20,489 nucleotides of DNA from Saccoglossus kowalevskii (Eukaryota > Hemichordata > Enteropneusta > Harrimaniidae), in NCBI RefSeq assembly GCF_000003605.2, contig NW_003134876.1:1-20489 (forward strand). The letters run 5' to 3'. The notes beneath the pieces were generated by a model. The model did no database searches and was not told the origin of the DNA. It worked only from the letters and a program-made list of their open reading frames with translations. Shown here piece by piece: positions 1-20,489 of the stretch. How positions within the stretch are numbered: position 1 is the stretch's first letter; each line of letters begins with the position of its first letter. The translations under genes and the position numbers were made by a program.

Positions 1-1060
1 TTTTTTGAATGCGAATGCCACCCCCGTCCCCCGGCGTTCATGGGACTCCGACGGGGCGAGGCAGATGATGAAACTTCCTTTCACCAATCTAATTAATCTC
101 TGCAGGATACCAATAGTCGTCTTCTTCTTCACAATCGCAGGGGCTGTCTCGCGTACCACAGACAGACTTGAGGGTCCATATAACACAATGGAGTAAGGTT
201 CACTATTAAATGGTACACAATATTAATCCGACAGGATCTGGTCAAGTGAACCAGCTCAATGAACAAACTGAGTCAATCCAACAGACTGACCAAATAAACC
301 CAGTGGCACCTAGTGACTGGAAAAATAAAATCACATAAAATTAATGCGCCAGGAACTATAAATTAACTAAATTAACCTGGCAGTGCCTGACACTAACGCC
401 ACATACAATGAAACACCTAGCTGTTGTACAAATAAAATGCCTGAACAAAGCAGTAAATGCCGCCCACACCAGCCCCAGGCTATACAAGAAGCAGGGCACG
501 TTGATCAAAAAAATTAACAACGTCCACACAGCAAACACTGGCTCCCAACTCAGCACAAACGCACAGGCATGCACCCAACCACATACACAAACAATACGGG
601 GTAAATACAATGATAAAAATGAACAACGTCACAATAAAATCAGCAAAATCGCCTCACCGTGCTAATCACAAAATGCGACTAACTAAGCAGTCTATACAAT
701 CTACCGAGAGAGTGCGTCGCTGCCCCAAAGACGCCGCCAAAAAAAGAAGACTCGCCGTGGTTTCCCGAAAAAGAGTGACCAGAACGAATCTCGCCAAAGG
801 CCTAACACGAAATGTGCATGCAGTGGAAAATTCCCTAAGATGATAACCACAATTAGGAAAAATCACGAGGTGTGCAACGGGGGAATGATGCAATCTCGGC
901 GGCGACGCACGAACAACTACACAGGACGGGAAAAAGTGCTATCACTACCCACAAAAAGTTACAATGATGTAAATCACAAAGTTTTGATGCAATAAAAGTT
1001 CACGCGATAATTGTTCAACATTTGATTGCAATCAAAGACGTTTCGGGGCTCCTTTCCGAA
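1..1060. other. GC-richer intronic block, possibly mobile-element derived
   Basis: This stretch is visibly richer in G and C than the rest of the window (for example GC runs near 20-60 and 700-790), and it sits directly upstream of a cadherin exon of gene 1. On the minus strand it ends in CATTCGCATTCAAAAAA at the window edge, as the tail of a retroelement would. Its short open frames on both strands lack any recognisable domain. I cannot name an element family. It has no supported gene and is most simply intronic. Confidence 0.35.
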
Positions 1061-1063
1061 CAG

Positions 1064-3590
1064 TTACGGTTACAGTTCACCTACCAGTCACGACGAATGA
1101 CAAATGATAGAATCTTTCGAATTTCACCAAACACGTGAGTAATTATTGTTTTATACACTCACCTGGTATATCATATATTTTGGCTTGTACTAAATAATGT
1201 TCAGTGATGCTTAAGATGATTATAAAAAATAGTGCATGGTATTCTATTCATGTTTACAGTGGAGAGATATTTCTAAATAGAAAACTGGATCGAGAGAATG
1301 TCGAAGAACATACTTTGGTGTTACTAGTACACGACGGGAACCGGACAGCGTACGTATTTACCATTAATCATGTGACAGACGTGTTTTAAAAAATGCCTCC
1401 TCCATCCCAAGACATTGATGTCTTTTCGTACGACTGATTGTCATTCAAATAAGTACCTTAGTGACAACAATAGTCTGTTGATCTTTTACAGAATGATACT
1501 ACTGTTCTCTCAGTCGTTGTTACTGACATTAATGATAATGATCCTGTAGTAACTGCGTCGGAGTATAATGTAATGGTTTTAGAGGAAGAGGCAGATTTTG
1601 TGGTAACTTATGTTAGGGTATGTACAAAAATCTGGTATTCAGTGCCTTGATTAAATATGCGTGGGTGTTCAGCCTTTGTGTAATTACTTCTTTTTTTATT
1701 GAACTTCCTGCCTTCAAATATAACAATACATGCAATGGATATTATGGCTTTCTGTTTGATCTTCAATTTTTTGTAATAATTTACATTGTGTGTGTTACAG
1801 GCGACTGATGAAGATTATGGAATTAACGCAGATTGTACGTTTACAATAGTTGAAAGACTTGTAAAGTACGTAAATGAATTATGACAGTATTTAACTATTG
1901 TAATGTTGTTGCTTCATACAACCAAATTTACGACAAATAACAATAATGCAAATAAGACACATTTATTACTTTGATTAAACACCTCATAGCACGTGATACA
2001 TAGCAGACATGTTCTTTGACATAGCAGACATGTTTTTCATCAAAATTCATTTTTTTTAAATGTCTCAACATAATACACATGTAAAGCGGATACAAAAACA
2101 TATTCAATTAAAATCAGGAAAGTGAAATCACGAACCGCAAAACAGTACTAAACAAAGAACAATACACGGTCATTGAAATAATGGAAAATGGCGCAATCAT
2201 TGTATTAATTCTATTTATTTATACACATTTATATTGTTTATAAGATAAGTTTCACACGTGTTAGTTGACATTTAGTACTTTTGGACTTATATTATCTCAC
2301 TTGACAGCAGTCTAATGGTTAATTAGTTTTTCAAGAAATCTATCTGGTGACAATAAACTTTGCTGTAGAACAATATATGAACTCATGAATAGTTACTACA
2401 GTACTAATTGCACACCATCTCGTGACAATTATTTACGATACAAAGCTGTCGCAAATAATGTGTTATTCTTGTTTCTCTAGTGATTTTACAGTCCACAACA
2501 TAACTGGGGAAGTGACAACGCGGAGAGTTCTTGATAGGGAACATAAAGAAACATATGAAGTATATATTTTGGCAATTGATCATGGTCGAAGTCCCCGTTC
2601 TGGTGAAGCATATGTGACAGTTACTCTCATTGATGTTAATGACAATCCACCAATGTTTGAATTAAATACTTATCGGGCCACCGTGGTTGAATACATATCA
2701 GGGAAATTTATCCTTTCGGTGAAGGTAACAATTTATACTTGTCACTGGTTGTTATCTTATTTCAATCTACTTTTTGGTCCAATAACAAGGCAGTTTTATG
2801 TTTTGGCAAAAACGTTCATGGTGTTGACAGTTTCATTTCAGTTCATTTCAGTTCTTCAATGAGGTTGAATTGTCATCGTCGTCTCAGCGTTTTAATTGTA
2901 AATATAGTATGTATTGTAGGGAATATAGTGTTCAGGCATACTATGTATAGCAATACATGATTTGTATTTGTTTACGTCAAGTTTGTTGTAGTAAACTACT
3001 TTCATTGTTCCTGCACTTACCTACATTATGATTTTGGAGTTATGTAATAATGTATACTTTTAAATGGGTATTGATGTTTAGGCAAAAGACATGGATGTAA
3101 TGGATAATGCTGCCGTGCGTTACGCAATCATTCCTGATAGTCATACCGACTATAATTTGTTCACTGTGGATGCAATGACTGGCAATGTATATTTTTCATC
3201 ATCTGAGTCTACTGAGAATGTGGGTGAAAATCTGGTGGTAATGATAGAAGCTTATAATGAAGTACCATACACATCGGATGATATTCTTAATGGAACAACA
3301 ACTGTCGATGTCACAGTACTGGTAAGACAATGACTAATTCAAGCGAGGAGCATTTATTACAGCAATGCAGTTATTACAGCAATATAATACCTAGTCAACA
3401 AAAAAATAAGCCAAATTGCATGCACAAGTTTACCTGTGATAAAATACTATCTAACTATGTATGAAATTAAGTACCTTACATCTGTATCGGTGTATTTGTT
3501 ATGTAGAAATATAATCATAGTGTCTAATTGCTTTGTAGTGTTCTACCACAGTGACGAGATACCATAGTGAATCAGACTGGTGGATGTGGG
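1064..3590 (+). other. Gene 1 extracellular cadherin repeats (last about three)
   Basis: The first visible repeat is partial. The exon ending at 1134 reads FRISPNT and splices in phase into [13 protein letters not shown] at 1260, giving the F-x-I...TG-x-I...LDRE signature, and it closes with the calcium-binding DINDNDP at 1525-1545. The second repeat opens with [10 protein letters not shown], has ATDEDYG for the DxD-type calcium site (1801-1821), VHNITGEV and LDREHKE, and ends with DVNDNPP (2632-2652). The third, membrane-proximal repeat runs from [12 protein letters not shown] across 3082-3321 ([20 protein letters not shown]). It lacks LDRE and has no closing DxNDN, as is usual for a last repeat. 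Such repeats mediate calcium-dependent adhesion; the ligand or partner cannot be told. Confidence 0.85.
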
Positions 3591-6066
3591 TAGTTATAAT
3601 CACTCTTGTTGGAATCGTCACCTTGATAATAGCAGCATCGCTAATAATTATAAATCGCAAAAGAAATTATCAGCATGTTCGAAGAGAAGCTTGTCATGAA
3701 TTACAGATATTTGAACATCAGGATTACGAGGAAATTGCAGAACACGTAAAATTTGACTCCATTGGTGAGATATTGCACTGTGTGAATTGATTTTTCATTT
3801 TTCACACAAATGATAATGAGAACCAGTCTGGCGATATAACTAGTTGAGAAAGACAACACATAGTTTTTGTTTATTTCATAGATATTGCAAAAGCAAAGCT
3901 GCTTGACTCATTAGATGAAGATCTTCGAATCGAGGTTGAAGATGTTCTTGTCTATCCACCCATTGACGGTGTCGTTTTGAACATTAAACATGTCATTGGA
4001 AAAGGTAAATCAACAGTATTTTGAACACAATTAATATACCTGAATCACAGATATATATATTCATATGACTTTTCGCGAGTACTTTTTACAACAAAAATAT
4101 CTAAAAAATCAGTAGTGCTGGGTTAATCAAGGTTTGAATGTAGTAAATATCTTACTGTTGTTTTGAATAACATAATATAGAGTTTATATAAATAAATATA
4201 AATGCGTGTGTTTTACTTGTTTTAATGTCATTTTGGAAAGGTGCATAAGGCTGTGCTCAAAAAAAATAATGGGGAATCGAATGATGTCGCTGTCAAAACT
4301 ATGCAAAGTAAGGATTTCACGTCATGTCATTTCACAAAATCTCATCTATTTGATTGATATAATCACCGGTACGTGACAAATATGCGCGTAATTCTATGTT
4401 TAATTAAACCTATTTTGTCATTTGTTTATGGCTATTTAATGTTTAAATCACACTGACAATAATTTTACTATAATCTACATGTTAGCAGCTTTTTGAAAGA
4501 AGGAACTATCATGAAAGACTTTGATCATCCTAATGTGCTGGGTTTGATTGGAATATTCATTGATGAGAATAGCAGTCCATCCATTGTTCTGAAACAGTTT
4601 GTTACAAAATCTACGAAGGTAGACATTGGTTAAATGTTTAATACTTATCCATCCATAACTAAAATTAAACTGAACGAATATATATATGAATAAAAATCGA
4701 AATTTGAGATAATGATAGTAGATACTTTAGATATAAAACTTATGATGCTAATATATGCTTAACATACAAAATGCATTCCTGGGGCATCAAAGACATACAT
4801 AAAATTAAAACGCAAAATATTTATGTCATTCGCCCGATATTGCATTTTACGTTTCTCATAGTGAACTGTATATATATATATATATATTACATAAACTAGG
4901 AATTCACAGTGGCTGAATTATTGACATTCGGACGTCATATTGCTTGTGGCATGGAGTACCTATCTGGGTTGCGATTTGTCCATAGAGACCTGGCTGCACG
5001 GAACTGCATGTAAGAAAACTAATAGAATGACACTTACGATATAGATGTGTGTTATTAGATGTCAAACCCAATTATGCATTAATTGAAAATATTCCCCTAA
5101 TGCAAAACATTGTTTTTCATCTTCACTGTGTTGTTTAAACAATAGCACATCTGATGAAAAATGCAGTGTTGTTTTATGATGTTGTACATCACGTACTACT
5201 CCAGTCATATTATATCTTAAAAAGGCTCTGGAATAAATACTACTAAACACATGTTATATATATAGGATTGACGAAAACATGGTAGTAAAAGTGGCTGATT
5301 TTGGTTTGTCCCGAGACGTCTATGAAAAAGATTATTACACCATTAAGAACAAGACGAACGCATTACCTGTGAAATGGATGGCGCCGGAAAGTCTGAGCAA
5401 AGAGACATTCAACACCAAGACTGATGTTGTGAGTTACAGTTAAGACACCTGATCAATAATGAAAACATAACAAAAATCATAACATTGATTATAAATAGTA
5501 CAATACAAAGTATACACATTGTACACTGTGATAAGGCTAATATTTTCCCTCCAATTTGCATTGTGTATTTTGTAGTGGTCTTTTGGTGTTGTACTATGGG
5601 AACTTATGACGCGTGGTGCAAATCCATATCCAGGTGTCGACAATCTAGATGTGTCACGATTTCTGTTAAGAGGTAATAGACTGTCGCAACCAGAATTTAC
5701 CCCATACGAAGTGTATGTATACTGATCCTTTTACATAATAATACACACGTGTGTGCACGTCATATAAAGTGATCTACGATAGCAACGGCATTCTCTGCAT
5801 GTGTTTGAGTGTTCACAATATATAAATTTAGTTTGTGATGTGTACTGTTTATGTATCTCAAAATCTTTCACTCAATGTTTATTTATAGGTACACGGTTAT
5901 GACATCATGTTGGGATATAGACCCAGAGCAGAGACCTGGGTTTAAAGATCTTGTCTCGGAAATGGACAAGCTACTATCTAAAATATCATCTGGCAAAGAA
6001 AACTCTTATATGAGATTAATACGTTCATCAGTGACTGATCATAACTACATGAAACCCGTTTTGTAA
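1064..6066 (+). CDS. Cadherin-repeat receptor tyrosine kinase with MET/RON-like kinase (3' portion of gene, 14 exons)
   Basis: Predicted single-pass membrane receptor with an extracellular cadherin array and a cytoplasmic tyrosine kinase. Proposed exons: 1064(or 1076)-1134, 1260-1353, 1492-1617, 1801-1865, 2481-2724, 3082-3321, 3539-3764, 3882-4004, 4227-4307 (or -4320), 4489-4618, 4900-5009, 5266-5428, 5576-5712, 5889-6066. These join in frame to about 666 residues and a TAA at 6064-6066, provided the two doubtful junctions around 4227-4320 are accepted. Visible order: parts of three cadherin repeats (DINDNDP, then DVNDNPP), transmembrane helix, juxtamembrane segment, kinase, short tail. Intron phases match across all other junctions. 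The 5' end (signal peptide, first repeats) lies left of the window. Known cadherin-type receptor kinases are RET and insect Cad96Ca, but the kinase motifs here fit MET/RON better. No canonical AATAAA was found within about 700 nt of the stop. Confidence 0.82.
1998..2034. repeat. Short direct repeat in a gene 1 intron
   Basis: ACATAGCAGACATGTT occurs at 1998-2013 and again at 2019-2034, separated by five bases. It is a minor intronic duplication with no evident function. Confidence 0.7.
3539..4004 (+). other. Gene 1 transmembrane helix and juxtamembrane segment
   Basis: The exon at 3539-3764 encodes a hydrophobic stretch from WWMW (3578) to about 3652, followed by the basic stop-transfer NRKRN. 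That places the following YEEI tyrosine motif (codons 3725-3736) in the cytosol. The exon 3882-4004 encodes a juxtamembrane stretch [20 protein letters not shown] and leads into VIGKG, the start of the kinase glycine loop. The LLD...VEDVL...VIGKG layout is similar to the juxtamembrane-to-kinase entry of RON and MET. There is no cysteine-rich, EGF or laminin G module between the last cadherin repeat and the membrane. Confidence 0.85.
3992..5990 (+). other. MET/RON-like tyrosine kinase domain of gene 1
   Basis: Motifs in order: glycine loop VIGKG (to 4004) continued by HFGKVHKA (from 4227); VAVK with the ATP-binding lysine (about 4288-4299); [19 protein letters not shown] (4490 on) with the alpha-C glutamate; [12 protein letters not shown]; catalytic loop HRDLAARN (4981-5004) followed by CM; DFG (5297-5305); activation loop with adjacent tyrosines DYYTIKNKT (YY at 5333-5338); [31 protein letters not shown] split at the 5428/5576 junction; and [41 protein letters not shown] and NKT-A-LPVKWM are shared with MET and RON rather than with RET, FGFR or EGFR. 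All catalytic residues are present, so activity is expected if splicing is correct. The stretch between IVLKQF and the next helix is short and lacks the usual GDL motif. Confidence 0.85.
4869..4888. repeat. TA dinucleotide microsatellite
   Basis: An uninterrupted TA run lies immediately upstream of the acceptor of the gene 1 exon at 4900. Confidence 0.9.
5990..6066 (+). other. Gene 1 cytoplasmic tail with two YM motifs
   Basis: After the kinase the protein has only about 25 residues, ending [12 protein letters not shown]...HNYMKPVL. Two tyrosines (codons 6007-6009 and 6046-6048), each followed by methionine, lie 13 residues apart. MET also carries two closely spaced tail tyrosines that dock SH2 adaptors. 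The motifs here differ (YMRL and YMKP), so equivalence is inferred only from position. Confidence 0.6.
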
Positions 6067-7076
6067 ATATTGTACCTAGTAGTATAGTCCAGTTGCAAAA
6101 CTGTTGGTATATCCATATAAGGTTTAATATATAACGCCTTGCTTATAAAGTATTTTAACTCACACTCTGGTCTACAGATACGCTATGATAATATATGTAG
6201 GTAGTTTCAAATTATCCTGTGTTATGTTTTGACTGCCTCCAATGTTACATGCTTGAATATATTCCACAATACAAATAGTGTATCCAGTAATGTACTATAT
6301 TATAAACCAAGTTACGTTTTTCATGACAAGGAAAATGTGTTTCCTTCACACGTTTTGTTGTCATTGGAATGTAATGCAAAAACAAATGCATTTTCAGTGT
6401 TGTTATCATATATTCTAAAATTGAGTTTATAGATGTTATATTTTTGCCATGTTGGCATACAAAATTTATGAACATAACAGAATTACTGATCACTGATACC
6501 ATAGCATATGCACCAGTACTAGTAAATATACAATCACACATATATATATATATATATATAATTTTTGCCACTATAATGGTATTTAATTTTTTGTAAATAT
6601 ATTAATACAGTTGAAAAATAATACCATAGTAATTACGAAATAGCAACAGTAAGCCCTAACCCATATTTGCGAAACAATTAAATATAATATCTCGTTCATT
6701 CATTTATGCTTGTCATTCCAGTTTGATTTGCAGTACGCATAATTGGAAAAGAACGGTCTGTTTTATTTTCTCTATGAAAAATATAAATATATAAACAGGC
6801 ATAAACAAACGCCCTATAAATAATAGAACTGTGATATGATATGTACTGGTCAAACCACTGTGTATGCTTTTATAGCCAACCAATTAATTGCCGATAACAC
6901 TAATAATGTTATGTTCTGACAACATAAGAGCAAAAGCATATTTTCAATTTTGTCATTATTCAAAAATTAGTTATTATCAGTATTTTTGTTAGTTTCCGAC
7001 AAATAGAAATATACAACATTTTAAATTGAATAGAATTGCACGGAAACAGTAAAATGAACTAATCAAAGTAATATGA
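6067..7076. other. 3' flank and presumed 3' UTR of gene 1
   Basis: AT-rich sequence after the stop. No AATAAA signal was found by eye as far as about 6800. TATAAA-like and ATTAAA variants occur (about 6145, 6301 and 6678). A TA microsatellite lies at 6541-6560. Short open frames on both strands here show no domain and are not called. Confidence 0.5.
6541..6560. repeat. TA dinucleotide microsatellite
   Basis: Ten TA units in the 3' flank of gene 1. Confidence 0.9.
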
Positions 7077-7079
7077 TCA

Positions 7080-7274
7080 AAATTGCTCATTGACAGTATC
7101 ACCAGATGTGTAATGTAGCTCATTATATGATTCTATGTTCACTGTTAGCATCTCCCCAACCCTCTCTATTGTCAACAAGGATGTAATACACACATCACCG
7201 ATTGTCTCATCCACAACAAAGTATTCATAGTTCATAACATGTTCATAGATGATTGCATCAATCACAACGGCTTT
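7080..7274 (-). pseudogene. Inverted relic of the gene 1 membrane-proximal cadherin exon
   Basis: On the minus strand an open frame ending at a TGA (7077-7079) resembles the exon at 3082-3321. The relic segments FVVDETIGDV, VGEMLTVNIESYNELHYTSG align to [30 protein letters not shown]. By eye, 48 consecutive residues align without a gap, with 23 identities. The copy is truncated on both sides: the start (GCAAAAGACATGG in the parent) is not recognisable, and a stop follows DTVNEQF where the parent continues [11 protein letters not shown]. No transmembrane or kinase exon follows on the minus strand, so this is read as a duplicated, inverted and orphaned exon rather than part of a live gene. An alternative is an exon of an unseen divergent gene. 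Confidence 0.7.
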
Positions 7275-11730: not shown

Positions 11731-11956
11731 TAGTGGTTAAACGTAGACGGTTTGCACAATTACATTTATGAAGGCTGTAGCAATATTTCTTTTCGCGGAG
11801 TTGTGTCATGTCTATTTCTGCTTTTTTTCATTTAAACAATTGTTATTGACAAGCCATAACGAAAACAATGGTGCTAGGTCACTGTGAGCAGTCAAGCCAA
11901 CTCGTGATATACACTTGTAAATAGTGACCTTTGTTCGTCGCAAGCACATATTTTTG
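11731..11956 (+). repeat. 226-bp tandem duplication, unit 1
   Basis: Begins TAGTGGTTAAACGTAGACGG and ends GCACATATTTTTG. It is followed immediately by a nearly identical second unit. No open frame or known element was recognised inside. Confidence 0.95.
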
Positions 11957-12181
11957 TAGTGGTTAAACGTAGACGGTTTGCACAATTACATTTATGAAGG
12001 CTGTAGCAATATTTCTTTTCGCGGAGTTGTGTCATGTCTATTTCTGTTTTTTTCATTTAAACAATTGTTATTGACAAGCCATAACGAAAACAACGGTGCT
12101 AGGTCACTGTGAGCAGTCAAGCCAACTCGTGATATACACTTGTAAATAGTGACCTTTGTTCGTCGCAAGCACATATTTTTG
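11957..12181 (+). repeat. 226-bp tandem duplication, unit 2
   Basis: Direct head-to-tail copy of 11731-11956. By eye the units differ by a change and one-base length difference in the pyrimidine run near 11820/12046 and by one T/C substitution (ACAATGG versus ACAACGG). The duplication is therefore recent or homogenised, or a local assembly artefact. It lies about 0.7 kb upstream of the gene 2 start. Confidence 0.95.
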
Positions 12182-12909
12182 TTTTTTACAAAAAAATCAA
12201 CTAATGCCGTAAATAGCAGCGTGACGAATTCTGCAAATAATTAGTAAAATTAGCACATAACAAGGCATGAGAAAATCGTATCTACAAGCTTGTATATAGC
12301 CAGTACATTGCCAACAAATTTAGAATATCTTGCACTGCCTGAGAGTGAACTAGATTCCAAGGTTCAGTTATTTATTCGAGTAAAGGGTTGATTCGGCAAT
12401 AGAGCCAGTAGCTAGAGATACCAATACAGATACAGTCTATATTAAACATTTATATTTGTAATTGCCTAATTTTCACACTTTTTACGCTAATTTACATCTT
12501 CATTGGTTTTTGCCACAGGGCACCTAAAGTAACAGTTTATTACAATACCATATACTTTCACGGAGAGGTTTTTGGTTTCTATGGAGATGAGTAAACAATG
12601 TTTTTTTTAATATTGTAAATTTTATTGAAATAGAGATACTAGTAACTTAAAATGCTGACTGCTTTATATGGCTTTATTTTACATGCCAAATGTACCATTC
12701 GGAAGAAAAGATGTATAATAATAAGGTTATTACGAAGATACCTCAAAGTATGTACGAAGACGGCGTACTGTATCCTCGTAATAACCTCATATTATATGTT
12801 TCATACTAATCACATGCTCATATGTGTTGTAACTAGCCACTAGTACTAGTAGTTACTTGTATTTATATGAATGTGAAATTGATTTCTCCATTGTATTTTA
12901 TATTCTCAG
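12182..12909. promoter_or_regulatory. Presumed 5' region of gene 2 (upstream of the first coding exon)
   Basis: Non-coding sequence before gene 2. A pyrimidine-rich acceptor-like tract (TTTTATATTCTCAG, ending at 12909) suggests that at least one untranslated exon and the promoter lie further upstream, in this stretch or beyond. No convincing TATA box or initiator can be singled out in such AT-rich DNA. The long palindrome at 12715-12795 is inside it. Confidence 0.3.
12715..12795. repeat. Long imperfect palindrome (hairpin) upstream of gene 2
   Basis: Left arm AAGGTTATTACGAAGATAC (12723-12741) pairs with GTATCCTCGTAATAACCT (12770-12787), and pairing can extend outward through AT-rich bases. 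Inside the loop, AGTATGTAC and GTACT can pair further. The result is a roughly 80-nt hairpin of precursor-microRNA size. It could also be a small inverted-repeat element or chance palindrome. Confidence 0.65.
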
Positions 12910-13277: not shown

Positions 13278-16200
13278 GTAAGTAATTCAATATAATAATA
13301 TATACCACCCATTATGAGTCAGATTTTGAAAATTTATTTCTAATGATGACATTGACACATGTTGGCCAATGAATATTATTTCTTGAATGTTGTACCCCGA
13401 AACCGAGTAGAGCGAGCATGTGTTCGTGACACATACAACATCATTTGGTGAGAGGTTGCATATGTTACAAATTGAAAATGCGAACTTAAAAACAACAGTT
13501 TCAATCAAGTAATTTTCGCTCTCTTTGCATTATCAACCTATTTCCAGAGAAGTTAACCTTGAAAAAAAGTATCCCATTATAGTAAGTGGTATCACTGTTC
13601 TAGTATTGTCTACTCCGTAGTGGTGATTGTCACTTAGGGACCAATCAGTTTTTATGGCCGGGGCTGGACCGGAATTTTTTTTGTAAATGTAGAAACTAAA
13701 TCAATAACCCCCCTGTATCCCCAATGAAAATTATGGTGACCCCCTGGACAAAGACTAAAAGTAATGTGACACCCCCCCCCCATTTTCAGTTCTTTTCAAA
13801 ATATGTTTATAGTTATTTATTTAATGTTGTTATAGTTAGTTGGTATAGATTGGCTGCATACTATAGTCATTGAGTGAAAAATAATTGTTTCTACAAATCA
13901 GCAAAATACTGCATGTCTCCAAGTGCCTGCTTGTCTCCCAGATCTTGTTGTCACTGTATACCGCACTTCACTGTGATCCTCCTCTTTACTGGCCAGAAAG
14001 AAAGTTGTAAACATTTTTGAGGAACTCAAACTTTAATACTGTATACAGGAGCAGGAGTTGGAGGAGGAGGAGGAGGAAGAAGAGGAGGAGGAGGAGAAGG
14101 AGGAGGAAGAAGAAGACGAAGAGGGGAGGAGGATGGAGAAGTAGAAGGAGAGCAAACTTTTAAGTGAGAAGGAAGAAAAGGATGTTATAGAATACAGTTT
14201 AAAGAACGAAGAGGATAAAAAGGAGAAGTAGCTGGGAAATATAGGAATATAAATAAAGTATAAGATAAACCAAAGATTGTTATATTTTATATATATTCTA
14301 TATTACAAATTTTTTATATCATACTTTATTGTGTTTCCTGTAAATCCCCAATACTTTTAGTCATGTGACAGTGATTGCTAACTGCAAATAATTAATAGCT
14401 TAGAATCTGTCAACCTATTTATTTCCACTTACTAATATTTGTTTATTATGGTATAATTAACACATTTACATAAACCACTTTTTATATTTTTATTTATTAT
14501 ATTTTATATTTATATTTATATTTATTGTTTATTATATTTTATATTTATATTTATTGTTTTGTAGTCAATATAAATTATTTGACATATAACCGTCCATACT
14601 TTACAATGTGTTGTCATGTACTGTATTTGTCAACATTTACATTGACATTGTTGCAATTTATAATTAGTTTATTTCTGTTTACAGTTTATATTTACAAATC
14701 ACATTCCAGCAACAGAGCGTGTTGGGCTTTTTTCACATTTAATGTGTTGGCATTAATTGTTGCAATATTGTCAATATTCCATTGCACAAGTTTTTATATC
14801 ATTTGCTGTCATACACCATAAATTGTTTCTGTGGTGCACCGCAATAAATTATAATTAAAATACCGATACTTGCTAGTGTAATAATTTCGAAATGCTATAT
14901 AAATACAATGCAGATAATACCAGCCTTGAAAGAAAGTAACAGTTTATACTTGCAAAATTCTGTGACGAAAGAGTGGCATGTTGTAACTTATAATTTGCAA
15001 TATTTTATAAATAAGGTGACCCCCTCAAATGCTGTCTGAAAAAGACTGACCCCCCTCTTGATACTTCAGAAATAAGGCCCCCTGGAATTTGCCGGCCCAG
15101 CCCCGGCTATAATAACTGATCTGTCCCTTAGTATCACTGTGCATGGTAGGCAAACATTAAACACAATCGTTGTTAACATACTATGCTGTGGTTTGTATTT
15201 TTAAGGTGAATTGTGTGATTATGACGCTATCAACCCAGCAATAACAGACTCATATGAACAAGAACCAATTGGTAGGTACAACATACGTCAAATATGTTCA
15301 CATTCACTGAGGGTTGTCAGTTAATTTAAATAATATCGTTCAGATTGTTAGGGGTTAGGTGGCGATTGCTTCTGTTTTCTTGCGACAATATCGGTTTCAC
15401 GAAAACCGGGAAGTGTTCTATTCATCATACATGGGAGGGGGTGCTCAGCAATGTGAAACTGTCTTTAGCTGTTGCCACAAGGTCCAGATAGCATGTGTGT
15501 TACATTTTGATAATCTGTTTCATTGCAATAAATAAATTGTTGCGAGCCATACCCAACGACGACGAACTGGCTGGCAGTGACTTTGTGATTGTGGGACATG
15601 TAATGCTTACCAGTTTCTGTTTACATATTTAATTGCACTTGCCTTTGAAATGAACGAAAAAAAAGCTGTCACTATTTTACGGAGAAAAATTTCAACTCGC
15701 CTAGTATGCACGACAAACATGCTAATATGAAAACAATAATGATATATTTGTGTTTGTGTTGCAAGAATGTTTATTCGATATTGCAACTATGCTGGACTGA
15801 AACTATAATATTTCGCTCGTTCACTGACTCCGGCTAAACCTGCTGCAATGGAAAGGAACTTCTTAAAAGTTCATTGTAAACTCAATAAAACGTCAAACTC
15901 ACAAAACTTAATAGCTCTGATGATTATATGCACTTGATTCAGACTTTTCATTACAAGGTGGAATGAGTTTGTTCATTGAGCTAAGCATTATCTGTCATTG
16001 TAATAGTGTGATATTTTACTACAAATATTGTACTCACCATGAGATAATTTACATTTTGTATCACTGCTATTCGTTACAGGTACCATTATTTACAGTATTC
16101 CTGTTGAGGGAGAGGTAGGTACTGAGATTGAGCTCAGTCTATCAGTGGAAGATGGTCATGATGACAAATTTGACCTGGATATTCAAAATATTACTTGGGC

Positions 16201-19200
16201 AGTGGTATATGACATGGAAGCAGAAAACGTGAGTACATTCATTAGACAATTTACTCAAATCACTGTTTATTGTGTTTTGTCTCATAATATATATATATAT
16301 ATATACGCGTGGGTGCGTGTGTGTGTGTATTCATTTTTGTGTTTTTGCGTATTTGAAAGTGAGCGTATATACATCATTTAGTTGTATTCTATTGGTAGTC
16401 AACTGGTCTCTCCCAAAAACGTTGGGGTGGAAAATTTGTTTTCTCTGAATGTCATATTCATATTAAAGTTATATTCAATATTGTATTGAAGTAGGTCAAA
16501 CCAATTTCAAACAATTTAAATGTCATTGATGAGTCTGCCGTCCCAATGATGATTTTGATAACTTATTTAAGCTAGTATTCGTACTGCGTATTATCGGATT
16601 GTTGAGCTATTAGGGCTATTCGGTTAAATGTTAGCATTGTTGCCTGTTCAGAAATTAAATAGTGGTCCTCTTCCACACTTATTACAACACATTCAATTGG
16701 ATCATTGATTTGGCTAAAAGAGATAATCCTGCAGGTTTCTATTTTCTTTGATATGCTGGTAGATAATGTCATCAACCCTCGTCTGAAGTTGGTACCCAGT
16801 GTGTTTGCTCACTAGATCACGAATTCCAGGGTTTGTACCATAAGAATATAAACTGTTCATGTTTTTGTGTATTTCAATTTTAAAAGTATTTTCATACGTC
16901 CAATGTTGTTTTTCATATAGTGTCTCGACGAATTCACCATAGATGTCACCTGTGAAGTAATTGTTAGTGGAAGAACAAAAGTAATTATTGCCTTTCTTGT
17001 TACAGTAGAGTTATTTATTTAGGGCTACAAAACAGATTAAAATAGTGAAACAGCAAGGTTGTAGCAATATTAATAATATAATTTATAATTGCAATAATTG
17101 AATATAAAAAATGAGTAATATTGAAAAATAAATTATTGAATAAAACGCGTTGTAAATTGTACATTTCTCCAGGTTGGTGCAATGTCCTTATAAGCTGCGT
17201 TGACCCCATTGAAACATGCAGGCCAAATAAACGTTGACAATCATAACAATCGTTAATAGATAATGGATGAATAATTGATATTATATTTCAATAATTAGAG
17301 TTGCATATCAAAACCAAGGTGTATTTTGTGATATGAAATATGGATTAGTCTGACAACTAGTTCATGACCGTGAATATTCGCCTCTTTGTCTACACTGTTA
17401 ATAGACGTTGAACTCTGTGTATTGATAAAAACTGCCTATTTGTAACATCACTTCTACTAAAAAAAAGAAATGAACGGAGGCGTATTGTTATTTATAGTAG
17501 TGAGCTAAAAACGACCAATGAGGTAAAGGGTAATTAAATCTACTATGACAACTTAATTTAATCACAATTATTTTTGTGTTTTAGACGTTGACGGTAATTG
17601 TAGGCATTGCTGATGTTAACGAATTTCCGCCTGTATTAGAAGACTCTCCTTATAAAGTTAACATAAGTGAGGTGAGGAACGTGTGTAGTAAAGGCAGATT
17701 TGGTATGATCACTCATTTAATCTTATTCATGATATAACAAGCTATTACTCTATTATAGAAGAGTTTCTCATATACATATATATTAGGAATACTATAAATG
17801 TGTTAGTGGTGTTAGTGTTACTGGCGATAATTAAAAATGAATGTTTAATTTCAGTTCACACAATTGGGCACTACTGTACTTATATTTGGTGCAACAGATG
17901 AAGATTGCGGTATTGTGCACTTATATTATGAAATAAATAAGGTTAGTTTATTAATTAATTAATTAGCACATAATTTATAAATTTTGTGTGAATATCGACT
18001 TCTCTTGAAATTGCTTAACATTAGGTAAAATTGTTTTGTTTGAATAACACAGTGACTTTGACAATCTGACCGTTTTCTTGTTTGTTGTTAACATCTTTGG
18101 TACAATTGGAAAAAATAAAAAGATACCACGTTTACACATATTTACGTTTTTTTTATTAACGTCAGATTTTAATCATGTCATGTAAAAGTGTAAAGACTTT
18201 GATCAGTTTCAGCGGAGGTACAACCATATATAATAACTATTCAAAACTGTCTATAAAATTGTGATCTATTATTTTTTCTTTCTGTAATCTTAGGGACCAG
18301 GATACAACCTTTTTGATATTCCAAGTGTAGGTACCCCAGAAGTAATTCTTGTTGAAGAAGTAGATTACGAAGAAAACACATGGTTTAATATAACTTTGCT
18401 TGCTAGAGACGTGAGTAAAACCGTTCACTCGACAACATACTATGGCAAAAAGTCAGTAAGGTTTTTAATGACATATGTCACATGTATGGCTAGCTGAATT
18501 TTCAGAATCAAGTAACATATGTTAATATATATTTGTAATCAACATGTAGCACATATTTGTTGTTCATTCTACAATTCGCATTATCAATATTAAATTGTAA
18601 ATTAATTGCTATCACTCTGAATTGATAGTTAATGTGACCCAACAATGTTGTAAACCACTCAATTATGGAGAATAAACAGTTAAATAGTTGTGCTTAAATA
18701 ATTAGTTATATTTTAGTAATATAAATGTTTAATGTAGTAATATTATCTGATAGTATTAGTTTTCTTACATCTATTTTAATTGAACGCAATCCAATTTATT
18801 CTAGAGCGATGACGATGACGCATTAACCGGCACCGGGGAAATGCACGTCTCTGTCATAGATGGTGACGATATGAGGCCAATATTTGGTGACATAACCTAC
18901 AATACCATGGTTACAGAAAATGATGCAAACGTATTATTGCTACCGGAATTCCCAGTAAATGCATACGACCAGGATTTCGGAATTGATGAAGACCTAAATT
19001 ATAGTTTTGCTGGTTAGTGATCTCATTATTATACACATTTTCAATAACATTTAAAAACCATTATGAAAAATACATCTAATTTGAACTTATTATTAAGCAA
19101 TCTGGATGTTAAGTGAATAACATCTGCATTGTTGTTACACACAAAATGTTATATTCAACATTTTAGTATGTACACACATATAGATACATGTATTCATGTT

Positions 19201-20489
19201 TTGAATCGCAGATCCTGAACGTACTGATGACGCCATATACGAAACAGAATATTTTCGTATTAATGACATGACGGGAGAGGTTACCCTTATTAAGGAACTT
19301 GACAGAGAAGCGTTGCCTGGTGGCACTATAACAGAAGTACTGAGAGTTAGTGCAATTATATTGTCAACATAGATTATAATATTACTGTTGAGTAAACATA
19401 TTTTCCTCGCAAATTAGATTATTAGTACCAGCTAATAGACGTTCTTATTGCACTTTATAATGTTAATTCTTATTTATAGGCTGCACAAGTAAATTCCATG
19501 GGTTATCACGTCTATACATATCGAGATGGTTATGCCACATTGGTAGTAACAGTACTGGATGTTAATGATAATATTCCTAATATGAGTAAACCTCTATATT
19601 ATGGCGAGGTTGCTGAACATTCACTGCAGGATACTATTGTGTGTGAAGTTAGCGCTACAGATATAGACGAAGTATGTACACTATCACACATAACATATTT
19701 CCTATCGCATTCTTTATGTGTAATTCTCTCGGGACAACTTGAATTCAATATACAAGTAATGCGTATATCAATACAGTTGATAAGTATGAATTTCAGTCTC
19801 TCAATAATCTATCATTTTATTTTTTGTTATTCAGGGAGAGAACGCCATATTTAATTTTGTCTTACAATCTGACTTTGTAAACCATAACATGTTTTATATT
19901 GGAGATCCCATATCTATTACACCAAATACCGCAGTTGCTTTCATTCGTGTCAATGATTCAACGTCTTTGGACGCTGAATATATCGCAAAACCAATTAATT
20001 TTACGGTGAGCGTAATTTGCATTTTCAAATACTATTTTGACGTTGAGCACGTTTTAAGTATCGTTTCTTAAGAATCGAGGTTTTCTCATAGAATGAAATA
20101 CAATTTGTATATACCACAAAAGATATTGCTTCATCAACTGTACTTACTGTTTTATCCGAGCTTGATTTATAAAGCATTGATGCATGTTTTACATCACAGG
20201 TGTATGCAATTGAAACACAGACGAGCGAACTATTTCGAAGTGAACCATCAACTGTGTCGATCACTGTCAGCGATATCAACGACAACATACCACTGTTCGT
20301 CGGGGAACCATACATTGCAAGTGTTAATGGAGATATAACAGAAGAGACATATCTGATCACGGTATATATGTATCTAGACACATTTGCATTGGTTCATTTT
20401 TCAGTATATAGCGTTTCTTCAATAATTTATTGTTTATGTTTGTTTCGATTTTTTCAGGTTAAAGCTGTAGACAGCGATCGCGATGATAA
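12917..20489 (+). CDS. Secreted or membrane cadherin-repeat protein, 5' part (13 exons visible, possible tandem paralogue of gene 1)
   Basis: Exons: 12917-12941 (coding part), 13227-13277, 15206-15271, 16080-16228, 17585-17671, 17855-17941, 18294-18410, 18805-19012, 19212-19345, 19480-19671, 19835-20005, 20200-20361, 20458-end. All have GT...AG borders with matching phases and read about 493 residues without a stop. The start ATG at 12917 is chosen because the first two exons join into a signal peptide: MTTKLMEPRR, a hydrophobic TLLIVLILHC core, then VEPVQ. An acceptor-like tract ends at 12909, so an upstream non-coding exon is likely. About four and a half cadherin repeats follow. The coding sequence is open at the window end, inside KAVDSDRDD, a calcium site of repeat 5. 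It is on the same strand as gene 1 and directly behind it. Whether it also ends in a kinase cannot be seen. The exact protein class (protocadherin-like, FAT-like or receptor kinase) is undetermined. Confidence 0.85.
14047..14153 (+). repeat. Polypurine GGA/GAA tract
   Basis: Over 100 bases almost entirely of A and G in GGA/GAA units, inside the 13633-15131 element. Such mirror-like purine tracts can form triplex DNA. No coding role is supported. Confidence 0.9.
14481..14560 (+). repeat. AT-rich minisatellite-like tandem repeat
   Basis: Two imperfect units of about 33 bp built on TTATTATATTTTATATTTAT and ending in TTTATTGTTT. It lies inside the mobile element and precedes a low-complexity open frame that is not called as a gene. 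Confidence 0.7.
16286..16329. repeat. Compound AT then GT microsatellite in a gene 2 intron
   Basis: An AT run (16286-16305) is followed by a GT-rich stretch. It is intronic, directly downstream of the exon ending at 16228. Confidence 0.85.
16714..17010 (-). other. Unidentified 98-codon minus-strand open frame in a gene 2 intron
   Basis: On the minus strand a frame opens after a stop at 17011-17013 and runs 98 codons to a TAG ending at 16714, with no initiating Met near its start. The residue mix is protein-like rather than low-complexity (for example YGTNPGIRDLVSKHTGYQLQ and VDDIIYQHIKENRNL). Shortly downstream another frame (16572-16775) stays open with PIECVVISVEEDHYL and TFNRIALIAQQ, as if one ancestral frame had been broken by a frameshift. 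I recognise no family. It could be a decayed gene, a retroelement fragment or chance. Confidence 0.25.

Follow-up and report, generated by a model that had tools for sequence, protein, structure and literature searches.

Here we present gene 1, a gene in which cadherin repeats lead by way of a membrane exon into a tyrosine kinase of the MET type. The window, the whole stretch of DNA that was analysed, is a complete contig (C2687) of 20,489 bases, both ends of which cut genes, and it was compared with its own genome (572 Mb, 4830 contigs searched). We consider it probable that gene 1 comes from a small family of genes with this composition and is a copy that suffered damage recently and probably no longer works; the best account of the joining of cadherin to MET-type kinase is that the lineage has a genuine receptor of this architecture, seen here in a damaged copy. 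This reading draws on the in-phase exons, the Pfam cadherin and kinase matches, the place of the kinase in the MET clade, the introns in common with MET-type relatives, and the constraint on a sister ectodomain on another contig (C14). The initial annotation had proposed a domain-shuffled receptor that couples adhesion to MET-type signalling; the cadherin-MET joining stands, while working adhesion-to-MET signalling does not stand for this copy, which has four damaging features, among them a repeat at its 5′ end.

Exon layout of gene 1

Gene 1 lies on the forward strand, and its exons E1 to E7, and again E9 to E13, are joined in phase through GT..AG introns (Table 1). The introns on both sides of the membrane exon (3321/3539 and 3764/3882) are GT..AG with the phase kept across each, which bears out the passage from cadherin exons through the membrane exon into a kinase that had been read from the letters alone, and the two calcium motifs named in that reading, DINDNDP and DVNDNPP, are indeed found in E2 and E4. 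The modelled exons contain no stop codons, and E10 to E13 look clean. In a Pfam scan whose query started with the residues of 1061-1097, i.e. with repeat sequence, the spliced protein reached 113 bits for Cadherin (PF00028, three stretches) and 278 bits for the tyrosine kinase. Gene 1 has what marks the Cadherin superfamily, EC repeats in tandem that bear DxNDN calcium motifs, and among solved chains those of CELSR1, protocadherins, and cadherin-23 come nearest to E2-E5. A RET_CLD1 match of 15.7 bits lies under the cut-off (20.1 bits in the C14 sister). Ahead of the membrane exon, in the part of gene 1 inside the contig, the Pfam scan matched neither Sema nor PSI nor TIG, and it showed no complete plexin ectodomain.

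Table 1. Features of the window (aa, amino-acid identity; C14, the contig with the sister copy)
Feature	Position	Strand	Remarks
E0 remnant, cadherin exon	1098..1134	+	5′ part gone; alignment to C14 begins at 1098
E1, cadherin exon	1260..1353	+	83% aa to C14
E2, cadherin exon, DINDNDP	1492..1617	+	90% aa to C14
E3, cadherin exon	1801..1865	+	86% aa to C14
E4, cadherin exon, LDREHKE and DVNDNPP	2481..2724	+	85% aa to C14
E5, membrane-proximal cadherin exon	3082..3321	+	89% aa and 93% DNA to C14
E6, transmembrane exon and juxtamembrane start	3539..3764	+	hydrophobic stretch, RKR
E7, juxtamembrane exon, ends VIGKG	3882..4004	+	part resembles LDEDLRIRVQDTL of the MET-type gene on C3462
E8, kinase exon, HFGKV..VAVK	4227..4307	+	AG absent in front
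E9, kinase exon	4489..4618	+	start 4486 or 4489; alphaC start shortened, hinge missing
E10, kinase exon, HRDLAARNC	4900..5009	+	
E11, kinase exon, activation loop	5266..5428	+	
E12, kinase exon	5576..5712	+	
E13, last exon, end of the C-lobe and two-tyrosine tail	5889..6066	+	stop 6064-6066
Relic membrane-proximal cadherin exon of another copy	7089..7271	-	46% aa to E5, E=6e-8
Gene 2, 5′ part of a cadherin gene	15208..20489	+	cut by contig end; Pfam Cadherin 77 bits
Gene 2, tentative extra exon	15208-15272	+	
Gene 2, exons 1-5	16080-16228, 17585-17671, 17855-17941, 18294-18410, 18805-19012	+	with splice sites and frames
Gene 2, exons 6-10	19212-19345, 19480-19671, 19835-20005, 20200-20361, 20458-	+	with splice sites and frames

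A MET-type kinase

The kinase of gene 1 is of the MET type and not of the RET/FGFR type, and trees, approximately unbiased (AU) tests, and intron positions all uphold this part of the initial annotation. Among the best 60 of 889 rows of matches to solved chains, MET scores 286 bits, followed by RON (262), TYRO3 (233), MER (229), AXL (215), and the next kinase at about 199. The top row of all is an EGFR chain with 302.9 bits, yet this chain carries two kinase copies of 150 bits each and was therefore not taken as the nearest relative.

A kinase phylogeny with MET, RON, RET, Cad96Ca, FGFR, and AXL had been suggested along with the annotation, and ours, in which gene 1 is compared solely with kinases of human origin and with two in-genome relatives (no Cad96Ca among them), places the kinase with MET and RON and rejects RET/FGFR. 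In the tree of 11 kinases it is the sister of MET+RON (support 98.6/99), and once the in-genome relatives on contigs C3462 and C455 are added, the MET clade including gene 1 has a support of 99.6/100, and three orders inside it are left unrejected by the AU test. When E10-E13 alone are used, the place as sister of MET+RON is again the best (91.9/84), with two placements unrejected by AU, outside MET+TAM (0.188) and with INSR (0.057). The placements rejected are those with RET (AU p=7.4e-7), with RET+FGFR (p=3.3e-6, or 5.0e-5 with the in-genome relatives added), and, for the full kinase, with INSR (p=0.0021), with TAM (AXL; p=0.0056, or 0.0037 with the in-genome relatives, and marginal at 0.044 for the C-lobe alone), and outside MET+TAM (p=0.018). 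A position nested within MET+RON was also rejected in the 11-kinase set (p=0.003).

The two in-genome relatives are further MET-type kinases, at C3462:310-313 kb and C455:181-184 kb (minus strand), to which the gene 1 kinase is about 50% identical. They resemble gene 1 in kinase type and in intron positions, and the one on C3462 also in a juxtamembrane motif. Six kinase introns are common to the two in position and phase: after GKG, after VAVK-xxK, between the hinge/alphaD and alphaE, within the M of RNCM, between DV and W, and before the last exon. Gene 1 keeps five of the six, the one after GKG with a normal donor and an acceptor that lacks its AG; the remaining intron has the matching donor GTAAGG at 4308 and no open path into exon 9. 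An FGFR-like gene of the same genome (L017) has an activation-loop intron, which gene 1 lacks, and does not have the intron between DV and W.

In the 8 kb upstream of each of the two related kinases are IPT/TIG pieces over the cut-off (26 and 32 bits), an additional IPT/TIG piece under it (17.6 bits), and PSI-like pieces slightly under it (21.5 and 21.9 bits). Assigned to the kinase genes by position, these pieces, within the 8 kb read, recall MET or Met-LP and make the two genes candidates for either; in Met-LP receptors, according to PMC6374515, a MET-type kinase is combined with a complete plexin ectodomain. Kinases and upstream pieces together span C3462:310-320 kb and C455:181-192 kb.

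Like human MET and RON, gene 1 has, beside a kinase of their clade, twin tyrosines in the activation loop and two in the tail, and unlike them it is without a Sema, PSI, or IPT match, a hinge, and part of alphaC. The tail tyrosines lie in SYMRL and NYMKP (6007-6048) and call to mind the pair of docking tyrosines in MET and RON, although they are 13 residues apart and those of MET about 7.

The genome search with the DNA of 3300-6300 matched only the window itself, and at the protein level nothing above 65% identity was found outside the window among the matches listed (127 of 169 candidates scored). Viral contigs yielded no kinase relatives, and prokaryote genomes yielded one weak bacterial match only. 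The latter, in L001 (RXJG01000005.1, a Sphingobacteriales MAG), is to the C-lobe of a tyrosine kinase (37%, E=6e-6).

Damage in gene 1

Gene 1 has four damaging features: a repeat in E0, a lost AG in front of E8, a shortened alphaC, and a missing hinge. The first is due to an interspersed repeat, about 1.1 kb long, that occupies 1..1097, with a poly-T left end and a right end inside cadherin exon E0, which it meets at 1097/1098. The corresponding exon of C14 is whole, with AVDVDEDDLTFTFGNG preceding the residues kept in the remnant. The gene had been annotated as starting at 1064; since bases 1-1097 are repeat, with similarity to C14 from 1098 onward, that start lies outside the gene. A genome search for the repeat gave 68 rows: the window itself, the cadherin exon of C14, and 66 repeat matches at 66-99% identity, some of these being pieces of one copy; 12 of the matches end at 1093-1097 and one at 1104.

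At the glycine loop, E8 is preceded by TTTTAAT (then GT), where the C3462 equivalent reads CAAAG, then GTCAGTTTGG. All GT/GC-AG combinations from E7 to E9 were enumerated within set ranges, and 16 paths keep the frame, VAVK, and exon 9. HFG is kept in none of them; VIGKG is retained in eight, two of which also have exon 8 from 4241 to 4320. Into exon 9, only weaker donor sites after 4302 and 4320 are open, not the GTAAGG. Skipping E8 altogether gave no open splice path in the ranges tried. Most of the kinase strings listed in the initial annotation are as described, and the C-lobe exons down to the stop are present, while normal splicing does not yield VIGKGHFG, with TTTTAAT standing before HFG.

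The start of alphaC (NDIEDVKK in C3462) is gone, and the hinge of eight residues is absent, the flanking alignment being free of gaps on both sides. The hinge is kept in MET (LPYMKHGD), in RON, and in the relatives on C3462 (LPFMAHGD) and C455, so that gene 1 is without the complete kinase of the MET/RON family, with its G-loop, hinge, and alphaC. Neither the hinge nor the alphaC loss had been noticed before, and the same holds for the second cadherin gene and the decayed minus-strand cadherin exon of the window. Against the reading as an inactive copy it counts that the modelled exons are free of stops and that E10-E13 are clean, so the damage is either young or partly tolerated. We advise against annotating this copy as a working receptor.

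Damage of this kind might be compatible with a gene still in use, as a working receptor with a dead kinase (a pseudokinase or decoy) and unusual splicing. The C-lobe, tail, and ectodomain exons are intact and 16 splice paths are open, eight with VIGKG and all without HFG; however, loss of the whole hinge would probably prevent the normal two-lobe fold and the ectodomain is interrupted by the repeat, and we judge such a receptor improbable.

Less probable still is that the lesions are errors of assembly and that the true gene is intact. The contig ends in the repeat, and on C14 the letters restart, past a stretch of N, in a 98.8% identical repeat copy (C14:256963-258058) at about the same start base, so a misjoin at 1097/1098 is possible; a repeat junction this near the contig end could be such a misjoin and counts against the reading of gene 1 as a damaged family member as well. 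The lost AG, the alphaC shortening, and the hinge loss, on the other hand, are found deep within the contig, where the DNA has no other match in the genome, and the latter two exceed one-base errors.

Sister copies and the proposed receptor family

The window holds the 5′ part of a second cadherin gene (gene 2), whose exons are 60-100% identical in amino acids to C14. On C14, gene 2-like exons are followed by exons like the cadherin exons of gene 1, all in one direction, over 194.4-206.1 kb. As this single gene matches both in order, gene 1 is the 3′ part and gene 2 the 5′ part of two copies. A 766-residue part of the C14 ectodomain contains seven Pfam cadherin stretches (232 bits). By our own Nei-Gojobori script, dN/dS to C14 is 0.306 for gene 2 (445 codons, ten main exons) and 0.335 for the gene 1 ectodomain (255 codons). 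Values for single exons range from 0 (10 codons) to 1.64 (exon 20200-20361), and the high ones among them, including 0.62 for E5, count against the reading of gene 1 as a copy from a constrained receptor family.

After the last cadherin exon, C14 is N throughout 206,539-229,999; from 232,000 to 256,500 all seven 501-base samples are N, and N continues up to 256,961. The N stretch covers the place at which a membrane and kinase end would be expected on C14, so a second cadherin-MET junction was not observed, and no kinase exon was found on C14 as read over 183,000-206,538. This is where the chief rival explanation has its strength: in a cadherin family without kinases, a duplication would have put MET-type fragments behind a dying copy by accident. 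The sole copy seen with a kinase is damaged, and C14 has no kinase exon either in the part read or among the matches listed. Yet E5, the membrane exon, and E7 are in phase with normal sites across two introns, and the N stretch of C14 falls exactly at the place expected for the kinase. Moreover, the gene 1 kinase, for all its distance from its in-genome relatives, is still free of stops, which means that it was probably long kept by selection. We regard an accidental junction as unlikely, and the family reading, in which the sister copies would also end in a kinase, as the better account.

If gene 1 does come from such a family, the C14 copy and the copy that begins at 15.2 kb may be receptors in working order, each with a MET-type kinase behind seven or more cadherin repeats, a proposal made from sequence comparison that we hold tentatively, at a little short of even confidence. 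In such a receptor, calcium-dependent binding of the cadherin repeats to neighbouring cells or to a ligand would cluster the receptor and turn on the MET-type kinase through phosphorylation at the twin tyrosines of its activation loop and at those of its tail. If true, cell-cell adhesion would directly drive MET-type signalling in this animal, with the MET kinase rewired independently alongside MET-type genes that bear IPT and were kept in the same genome.

Among known systems, RET and the insect receptor Cad96Ca/Stitcher resemble gene 1 in placing a cadherin-type ectodomain on a receptor tyrosine kinase; unlike gene 1, RET has a kinase with which, alone or together with FGFR, the gene 1 kinase does not group. 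PMC7619074 gives RET as the only human receptor kinase with cadherin-like domains, and Cad96Ca is termed RET-like in PMC11908783. Met-LP, like gene 1, combines a MET-type kinase with an ectodomain that differs from the one in MET; unlike in gene 1, this ectodomain is a plexin one rather than cadherin repeats (PMC6374515). Swaps of the ectodomain on a MET-type kinase are known already from the plexin forms in that source; were there a cadherin version, it would mean that adhesion, too, had been connected to the MET kinase, and MET signalling triggered by adhesion could be tested directly in an animal that is not a vertebrate. No cadherin-MET receptor was described in the literature searched, which comprised titles and the starts of abstracts, with most subscription journals outside its scope.

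Other traces of cadherin genes and of duplication were also seen. The isolated, decayed minus-strand exon (7089-7271), for which the same search found no neighbouring exons of its gene, points to another lost copy. At 11731-12182 of the window, a unit of about 226 bp is duplicated in tandem almost perfectly (99%). Elsewhere in the genome, five contigs (C2180, C347, C4774, C1913, and C4133) show numerous cadherin matches, each set within one long open frame of up to 4971 codons, with the appearance of protocadherin-type clusters.
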